Assembly (NCBI RefSeq): GCF_010994755.1
Contig: NZ_WHSB02000002.1
Span: forward strand, 310,001-374,000
Reading direction: 5' to 3'
DNA from: Shinella lacus
GTDB taxonomy: Bacteria > Pseudomonadota > Alphaproteobacteria > Rhizobiales > Rhizobiaceae
DNA: 64,000 nt
Position numbers and translations under genes: made by a program. Shown in pieces: positions 62,500 through 64,000 of this stretch. The notes beneath the pieces are model-generated. The model was not told where the DNA came from. It searched no databases and saw only the letters and a list, made by a program, of their open reading frames with translations. Each line of letters starts with the position of its first letter. The first letter of the stretch is position 1.

Positions 62500-62557
62500 C
62501 CGTGCCGATGAATTTTCGCCACGCCGCGCACGCTGCGCCACAGGATATCTGGCGCGC

Positions 62558-63085
62558 ATGATCAGCCATGTTGCCCTCCTGCACTCGATCGTGCTTGGCC
62601 CGGGCCGCCGCGTCGTGATGGCGGAGCTGAAGGCGATGGCCGAGAGGCTCGGCTTTGCCAATCCCCGCACGCTGGTCGCGACCGGCAACCTCGTCTTCGA
62701 TGCGCAGCACGCGGACCTCGCGACGCTGGAAAACCGGCTGGAAGCGGCATTCCGCGAAACATTCGGCAAACATGTCGATATCATCCTGCGCCGCGCCGAC
62801 GCCTGGAAACGGCTCGCCGCCGGCAATCCATTCCCGGGCGATGACGGCGCCAATGTCTGCGTGCGCGTGATGCGCGAACCGCTCGGCCCCGCGGCCCTCG
62901 AAAAACTCGAAAAGCTGGCCGCCCCGGAACTGCGCCTCGCCCTCGTCGACGGCGACCTCTGGATCGACTTTCGCGGCAAGCCGAGCGAAACGAAACTGCT
63001 CTCGCACCTGACGACCAAAAAACTCGGCATCGGCACGCTGCGCAACGCCAACACCGTCAACGGCCTCGCGGCGATGCTCGGCTGA
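62558..63085 (+). CDS. DUF1697 family protein
   Basis: A 175-residue DUF1697 protein. Typical features are the opening HVALLHSIVLGPGRRVVMAELK (by ends), the TLVATGNLVFDA strand and the C-terminal TTKKLGIGTLRNANTVNGLAAML, a segment also typical (named here by its ends). Function unknown. The ATG at 62558 gives the family start; the frame runs upstream in yidD as an overlap artefact. It is the last GC-rich gene before the compositional change. Confidence 0.9.
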   Translation: MISHVALLHSIVLGPGRRVVMAELKAMAERLGFANPRTLVATGNLVFDAQHADLATLENRLEAAFRETFGKHVDIILRRADAWKRLAAGNPFPGDDGANVCVRVMREPLGPAALEKLEKLAAPELRLALVDGDLWIDFRGKPSETKLLSHLTTKKLGIGTLRNANTVNGLAAMLG

Positions 63086-63431
63086 CGGGGCAGAGCGGCT
63101 TGCATGGCGGCTCTAAACCAACCTCGCGTACGCGGGGAAGCGGGAAGCCTGTCACAACGGAAATTCGCATTCCCGCAGCGTTTCGCGCCTCTTCCGCTCC
63201 TGCCACATGTCCCGGCAGTAAAAGAAAGTGTCTCCTCTCGCCCGCATCGACACGTTACGCGATCCGTCCGGCGTCGGAAGGAGGTTTTTAGGATACGGTA
63301 GGTTTGGGGGCAGAGAAAATTATGGAGGTGAATTTAGACGTTGAGGCCTGTGTTGCCCCTGTTTGTCGCGGGTTTTCGTTGACAGCCAAATTCTGGGATG
63401 CATTCTGTTCTCAACAACCAAGGGGTGAATT
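63086..63431. other. Junction region before an AT-richer gene
   Basis: A 346-base gap with changing base composition. It contains CGCGTACGCGGGGAAG (63125-63140), which resembles half of a type I-E CRISPR repeat but occurs once. A weak promoter-like pair (TTGACA at 63379, ATTCTG at 63402) lies just before the next gene. No ORF with a ribosome site is seen. Confidence 0.45.
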
Positions 63432-64000
63432 GTGGTAGACGTAAGGGATGTATCTAAAGAAGAATTTGGCGGAATTCTGGGGTTACAAGAGAGCTATTTT
63501 TGCGACCTTAAAAGTAAGCGAATTGCACCCGCAAAATTGTCTCGGTCAATTTCAGCATTCGCAAACGCAAGTGGCGGTGAAGTTTACGTTGGCATTGAAG
63601 AGCTCGACGTCGCAGATGGAAAAAAGCGTTCTTGGGATGGCTTTTCTGATCAGGAAGAGGCGAATGCCATATTTCAAGTGATGTCAGAATTAGACCCACT
63701 AGGAAGCAATTTTTCAGGCCAATTCCTTCGATATCAAGGCGCGCCTGGCTTAGTTCTTTATTTGGCAATTTCAAAGACACAAAGTGTCGCTCATTCAACT
63801 GATGGTGGCGTATATAGGCGAAATAATGCGTCTAACCTTCCGTTAAAAGATGAAGCGCTTGAACGCCTAAAATACGATAAGGGTGTCCGATCTTACGAAA
63901 ATGAGAAGATGGCAGTCGAGACTGACGAGGTTACAAACTCGAATATTGTTATCGAGTTTCTTATTGATGCGGTTCCGACGGGAGAACCTGCGGAGTGGCT
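63432..64000 (+). CDS. Schlafen/AlbA_2-type putative DNA- or RNA-binding protein, 3' end outside window
   Basis: The frame from GTG at 63432 stays open for 189 residues to the window edge. Residues 15-135 fit the AlbA_2 (Schlafen-like) domain: DLKSKR at 25-30, AFANASGG at 42-49, VYVGIEE at 51-57 and VYRRNNAS further on. AGGGGTGA precedes the GTG. Its A/T-ending codons are unlike all neighbours and suggest transfer. Such genes occur in mobile and defence loci, with or without ATPase domains; the C-terminal partner domain is not visible. Confidence 0.8.
   Translation, partial: MVDVRDVSKEEFGGILGLQESYFCDLKSKRIAPAKLSRSISAFANASGGEVYVGIEELDVADGKKRSWDGFSDQEEANAIFQVMSELDPLGSNFSGQFLRYQGAPGLVLYLAISKTQSVAHSTDGGVYRRNNASNLPLKDEALERLKYDKGVRSYENEKMAVETDEVTNSNIVIEFLIDAVPTGEPAEW

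Follow-up and report, generated by a model that had tools for sequence, protein, structure and literature searches.

The interval between yidD and thrS is a hotspot for accessory genes in Shinella, with the same core flanks enclosing different cargo in most genomes, and the AT-rich gene at the right edge of the window (the whole stretch of 64,000 nucleotides of Shinella lacus DNA analysed here) is the cargo in this genome. We put a probability of roughly 70% on the reading that a single defence gene of a phage-borne type landed in this recurrent slot between yidD/DUF1697 and the thrS promoter, and was later inactivated by a frame change. The slot provides a fixed and easily found address, running from yidD to the thrS promoter, for one or a few foreign genes in most of the Shinella species examined.

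The GC content of positions 63432–64000 is 0.445, against a mean of 0.636 (sd 0.030, minimum 0.487) for 1,249 equally long, overlapping windows within positions 1–63000. Third-position GC in the frame opening at 63432 is 0.40, compared with 0.87 in thrS and 0.84 in the DUF1697 gene. The sharp change in composition and codon usage that a preliminary description had noted in the last ∼570 bases is thus borne out; its true onset lies ∼110 bases before 63432, near 63324. The frame on the plus strand has a GTG start at 63432, remains open past 64000, and ends outside the window at a stop equivalent to 64268, giving 278 amino acids. Its residues 20–138 match the Pfam family SLFN_AlbA_2 (PF04326; E 4.8e-9) with 37.2 bits, above the gathering score of 25.3, so that the AlbA_2-type domain proposed from the letters is confirmed, and this gene is the only SLFN_AlbA_2 match in the whole 7.04-Mb genome (53 contigs; the window covers positions 310001–374000 of contig C13, which is 729,575 bp long). 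A second part, matching HATPase_c_4 (E 5.2e-20), follows in the –1 frame and extends outside the window to 64810 (L002:4265-4810). No match to the gene was returned by an NCBIfam profile search.

The DUF1697 gene (62552–63085, plus strand; PF08002, E 2e-31) is the left core neighbour, and is followed by a conserved low-copy element at 63098–63323, pieces of which are 73–85% identical in the slots of 12 relatives. The AT-rich cargo, as delimited by composition (GC 0.436), occupies 63324–64000 and continues outside the window to 64810 (L002:3324-4810), with its right edge ∼112 bp before thrS, which starts at 64955 (L002:4955), also outside the window. The AT-rich stretch is therefore ∼1.5 kb long and filled by the one Schlafen gene, after which thrS and core GC resume.

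These data bear directly on the suggestion that the composition change marks the boundary of an island. In the 35 kb past the AT-rich stretch the GC content of 500-base windows is an ordinary 0.55–0.71, and, depending on the junction tested, between 13 and 20 of the 20 relatives share the nearby gene order, so that core composition and conserved synteny largely prevail to the right. Because GC and synteny return within ∼1.5 kb, no large island begins here and the proposed boundary is not upheld. A large integrase-type island, tens of kb long with an integrase or a tRNA target, was considered and rejected on the length of the AT-rich DNA and on the finding of no tRNA in 20 kb of this genome; integration targeted to a tRNA was rejected on the latter count. 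A search for direct repeats as insertion scars gave only one 12-nt pair, internal to the gene. The expectation that an accessory system might be found at this place fared better, in that the place proved to be a hypervariable slot, albeit not the start of a large island, and the expected absence of the gene from close relatives held in all 20 genus relatives searched.

We compared the slot in 21 Shinella genomes (the S. lacus genome, G000, and 20 relatives), with one genome per species, such that the variation measured is that between species of one genus. All 21 have yidD upstream of thrS, at a distance from the end of the yidD match of between 153 and 8,697 bp; this exceeds 2 kb in 16 genomes and is below 1.5 kb in the other five. 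The DUF1697-thrS distance, measurable in 18 genomes, ranges from 669 to 8,166 bp, although not all of these are gaps between whole genes, because the DUF1697 match is partial in three of them, covering the last 25 codons in G013 and G019 and residues 5–107 in G020. As a control we scored 24 junctions between conserved genes across the 40 kb surrounding thrS; at each one, 0 to 7 of the 20 relatives were omitted because the junction was absent or rearranged. For the thrS junction an antisense ORF overlying yidD served as left marker, for position only, which makes the yidD-based distances above the cleaner count. Of 19 relatives, 15 have a gap of more than 1 kb at this junction. None of the other 23 nearby junctions matches this: 19 show no such gap in any relative, and the remainder do so in 7/13, 3/15, 1/13 and 1/13. 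The thrS junction is thus the most variable.

The slot has the same right edge in all 21 genomes aligned. Mean nucleotide identity among them is 0.83 within 112 bp of thrS and drops to 0.16 at 118–230 bp, against a random expectation of 0.20. A tblastx match of any kind within the 1.5 kb preceding the promoter is seen in only 18 of 210 genome pairs; going by coordinates only, we attribute these to slots that are almost empty, to the left element, to AAA genes, and to a short match between G007 and G012. Sinorhizobium meliloti has the order folE, scaffold gene, yidD, DUF2267, DUF1697, 111 bp, thrS, and so presents a near-empty form of the slot; two further Sinorhizobium records have the same DUF1697-thrS spacing. 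In a member of another Rhizobiaceae genus (G034, locus L140) the 1.5 kb before thrS are AT-rich (0.33–0.47) with a similar promoter block, and the slot may therefore be used outside Shinella too. A literature search found no published report of a thrS hotspot, and the main texts of PMC11476347, PMC10121019 and PMC10250203 do not mention thrS.

An AT-rich cargo gene precedes the thrS promoter in 17 genomes, and these genes are mostly different ones. A 432-bp stretch in G002 (GC 0.525) was not counted as cargo, while the stretches in G004 and G019 (0.55–0.58) were. PADLOC was run on 22 proteins from 17 genomes, the set excluding G002, G006, G011 and G013, and gave matches with E values of at most 1e-15 in 7 of the 17; the threshold was chosen after the results were seen, and the figure is a count for the slot alone. 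Besides the Schlafen-HATPase gene of G000, the strongest matches are to PDC-M07A (G008, 2e-153), HEC-01 A and B (G001, 6e-146 and 4e-59), AbiU (G018, 1e-105), a retron reverse transcriptase of RT_VI type with a 67-residue neighbour ORF (G014, L043:3328-4564; 1.4e-63), an AAA gene (G009, NsnB model, 8e-30), PDC-S31 (G016, 2e-28) and a PD-DExK model (G007, 5e-18). AAA-type matches are promiscuous, with G008 alone matching 107 models. The remaining cargo includes a partial PDC-M28C match (G010, 2e-14), a methyltransferase (G004, partial mad2 model, 6e-10), an ORC-CDC6-like ATPase (G020), an InsA-type zinc ribbon together with a weak EACC1 match under the cut-off (G012), a hydrolase-DUF4019 gene with a C39-like gene (G017), a GAD-like/Tdi1 immunity protein (G019) and DUF1508 (G005); the AT-rich gene of G015 and the cargo of G003 have no Pfam or PADLOC match. 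By these profile matches the slot appears to hold several genes of defence type; an enrichment for defence over accessory genes in general is not proven. Several slot genes thus match known or candidate anti-phage systems and several have no family match, and through guilt by address the latter would become candidates for new defence genes.

The sequence to the left of the cargo includes a second conserved feature of the slot. This left element is ∼226 bp long, and its 29-nt core gives 25 matches in 13 of the 21 Shinella genomes, 12 of which carry it at the thrS slot, doubled in G007 and G019. The S. lacus genome has another copy at G000:C53:230945-231169. Directly to the right of the copies in thrS slots the sequence is AT-rich in 10 of 14 cases, and in the other four the next 250 bases are not under 0.5 GC. 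We considered and rejected the element as a general insertion site, since the 11 copies elsewhere lack an AT-rich right side (GC at least 0.54, the lowest being G007 C1 at 0.54–0.57). The idea that it is a structured RNA gained no support; among 25 copies and 26 predicted pairs, none is changed on both sides. Rfam searches of the slot and around six of the copies gave matches only far below gathering scores.

The conserved 112-bp block on the right opens with a –35-like hexamer located 18 bases before a TATACC hexamer; this pair was not listed by a promoter consensus scan. From its conservation and the hexamer spacing we infer that the block is the thrS promoter. The Sinorhizobium genomes have a different sequence at this position.

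The slot of G014 (L043) bears on how cargo may arrive. Here, 891 bp upstream of thrS, the thrS promoter and leader recur together with the first 44 codons of the gene, and a 175-residue ORF without a PADLOC match follows this copy. This copy is 88% identical to the thrS of three other species as compared with 85% to its own thrS end, which suggests that incoming DNA carried the thrS end of its donor. Together with the doubled left elements, the copy fits a route in which one flank undergoes homologous recombination and the other is joined imprecisely, which is similar to what has been proposed for hotspots lacking mobile elements (PMC5635113). We picture a turnover of the slot in which homologous recombination would occur in the conserved flanks, accompanied by sloppy joining, and in which any insertion destroying the thrS promoter would be lost, thrS being needed; a loss of promoter-destroying events would account for the sharp right edge. 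The remnant in G014 gives a tangible starting point for understanding how cargo enters hotspots that lack integrases.

The shared right edge, the foreign-looking thrS 5' copy in G014, and the left element conserved in 12 genomes and doubled in two could also mean that the thrS 5' end is a dedicated target for site-specific insertion, used by elements that bring a copy of the promoter and the start of thrS. We think this very unlikely. A Pfam scan confined to 28 proteins from AT-rich ORFs in the slots of relatives found no recombinase or integrase domain, bar one InsA-type zinc ribbon; the second thrS 5' copy occurs in only one of 21 genomes; the left element is also present at 11 other places that have no AT-rich sequence on the right; and the divergence of the Sinorhizobium sequence at the promoter position is what is expected of a mere promoter. 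A bolder proposal makes the thrS 5' end a recombinase-free gene-capture site, at which incoming cargo, accompanied by the thrS promoter and start of its donor, would be joined at the promoter of the essential gene, with one- or two-gene cassettes distributed genus-wide and the unmatched AT-rich genes being mostly undescribed anti-phage systems. The thrS remnant of G014 and the doubled left elements of G007 and G019 would be traces of such events, although we consider the proposal as a whole quite improbable.

The state of the Schlafen gene is the next part of the preferred reading, that of a single defence gene that entered the slot and then lost its frame. The SLFN_AlbA_2 frame ends at 64268 and the HATPase_c_4 part lies in the –1 frame, whereas both parts are in one open frame in 24 of 27 loci examined (20 of 22 viral and 4 of 5 others). 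The exceptions are two viral loci without a match to the second part, and L033, which has an in-frame stop. Three plasmid relatives are each annotated as a single coding sequence that aligns over both halves. Because these 24 loci and the three plasmid genes read through, the split is particular to this genome, and from its sequence the gene looks inactivated by the frame change. The two frames do join in register with the relatives, with no residue lost at the joint relative to L033, as would be the case if programmed –1 frameshifting kept the gene alive by producing a full protein and otherwise a short form. However, all 25 relatives with both parts keep one shared frame and none requires a shift, and L033, the nearest by sequence, is also broken, at another position, which suggests decay; we regard frameshifting as highly improbable. 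An assembly or sequencing error, leaving the gene intact in the organism, would be compatible with the frame change being the sole defect seen, both parts being otherwise open, and we judge it unlikely.

Relatives of the gene are sparsely distributed. A search of 61 genomes, its own included, found the gene itself and one match in a genome of the same order, and an order-wide search found matches in 7 of 397 genomes, again counting itself. The nearest relative in the genome collection, L033 (7986–9392), is 60% identical, in a scan that reaches close relatives only. Six plasmid records have matches, all at less than 37% identity. Neighbourhoods were examined for three of these: the Vibrio relative has a DNA methyltransferase and TIR proteins nearby, the Cupriavidus one a DUF4062 protein and a transposase, and the Caballeronia one an integrase as well as an XRE/DUF4411 pair. 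Phage records gave two matches, both below 27% identity, and viral contigs gave 22 relatives, three of them at 57–59% identity. One of the viral relatives, L188, has an intact 483-residue frame 68 bp behind an integrase-type gene, with PF00589 in the same record. PF00589 integrase matches were found in 17 of the 20 viral records searched (the 22 less L207 and L209), and the presence of integrases suggests that the viral records carrying relatives are proviruses. IMG/VR records include proviruses, and integrases are thus expected there.

The structure of the intact protein was approached through an AlphaFold model of L188 (pLDDT 84.5, pTM 0.69), which suggests a domain resembling Schlafen nucleases at the N terminus, then a GHKL ATPase domain, and a winged helix at the end. 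Searched by sequence against the PDB, the family profile finds SLFN5, SLFN12, SLFN14 and SLFN13 (the last under the entry name Schlafen 8) with E values of 9e-7 to 1e-4. Residues ∼3–146 of the model align to SLFN5, SLFN11, SLFN13 and SLFN14 (Z 9.2–10.0, rmsd 2.9–3.8, 110–121 residues), residues 3–124 to residues 190–323 of SLFN13 (Z 9.6, rmsd 3.1, 112 residues), the model to the SAMD9 tRNase domain (Z 9.8), and residues 240–396 to SpoIIAB (Z 9.2–9.3), with a Z near 10 being not far above the scores of unrelated models. Residues 397–464 align to winged helices. The best whole-chain match is DIP2311 of Corynebacterium diphtheriae, a structural genomics entry whose title names no function (3lmm; 333 residues, Z 21.9, rmsd 13.3), but at ∼15–20% identity; the family profile also finds 3lmm through the ATPase part (E 1e-11). 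The GHKL ATPase and winged helix are in one chain with the nuclease domain in relatives, whereas the ATPase part of S. lacus is in another frame.

Candidate active-site residues are well conserved. E20, D25 and an acid at position 57 are present in the window gene and in all nine aligned rows, as is K27; in an 18-row set the E, the D/E and the K are present in 18 and the third acid in 17. In SLFN13 the nuclease residues are E205, E210 and D248, and mutation of any of them diminishes cleavage, as described in PMC5862951. The E-x4-acid spacing equals that of E205/E210, the match being one of spacing and fold region and not of residue-level superposition. The window gene type shares with the tRNA-cutting N-domain of SLFN13 (PMC5862951; PDB 5yd0) the fold of one of its lobes, with E-x4-acid and a later acid, but differs in that a single lobe, putatively a nuclease, precedes an ATPase and a winged helix. 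By analogy with these relatives, the ATPase domain and winged helix of the intact protein would hold the nuclease in check until infection is sensed, when tRNA or another RNA would be cut and growth would stop; RNA cutting, ATPase control and growth arrest or abortive infection are the functions we infer.

Alternatively, the gene could encode a transcription regulator acquired by chance, with no role in defence, as an old 'RecG-like' label would have it. The C-terminal winged helix of the L188 model, the PHROG label of the gene ('DNA helicase') and the PADLOC results, which are weak, partial matches to pAgo and fusion models (best 6.7e-12) and no full match, all lean this way. We nevertheless find it rather unlikely, since the nuclease-type acidic residues are retained in nine of nine aligned rows, relatives are carried on viral contigs, and proteins with a Schlafen-family RNase, a minimal histidine kinase and a wHTH occur near BREX. 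The latter are reported in PMC12839542, citing Taboada et al., to be linked to BREX in at least 1017 taxa and to serve as backup suicidal effectors. The domain order is the same, going by that paper's description and the L188 model; unlike the proteins described there, the window gene stands alone in its 1.5-kb slot and its frame is split. The Schlafen gene itself belongs to a known kind and is probably dead.

The slot also has parallels. In the account of PMC10250203, the cDHS1 and cDHS2 loci of P. aeruginosa are likewise slots between core genes with changing defence genes, and cDHS1 is not bound to any single type of mobile element; however, cDHS1 spans 1–224 kb (median 26 kb) and both loci are beside a tRNA or tmRNA, whereas the thrS cargo is small and no tRNA was found in 20 kb of this genome. 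The hotspots of Oliveira et al. 2017 (PMC5635113), as described there, resemble the thrS slot in that genes lying between core genes turn over rapidly and mobile elements often cannot be recognised, and double homologous recombination was proposed for those without. Those hotspots were defined within species, while the thrS slot is measured between species of one genus and without their statistical threshold.

We also observed a hairpin-like stretch upstream of thrS, at L002:4916-4935 (∼64916–64935, slightly beyond the window), in which CCCGC and GCGGG enclose an 8-base loop. It has no Rfam match, and the 91-nt fold around it is no more stable than those of shuffled sequences. The stretch is present in all 21 Shinella loci and in all 28 other loci of the family Rhizobiaceae examined. 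Its loop takes 12 forms in 28 loci, with CGT in the middle in 26 and GGT in two, and each of these centres is a tRNA-Thr anticodon. In E. coli, thrS is under feedback control by ThrRS through an operator resembling the anticodon arm, and by analogy the hairpin may be such an operator.
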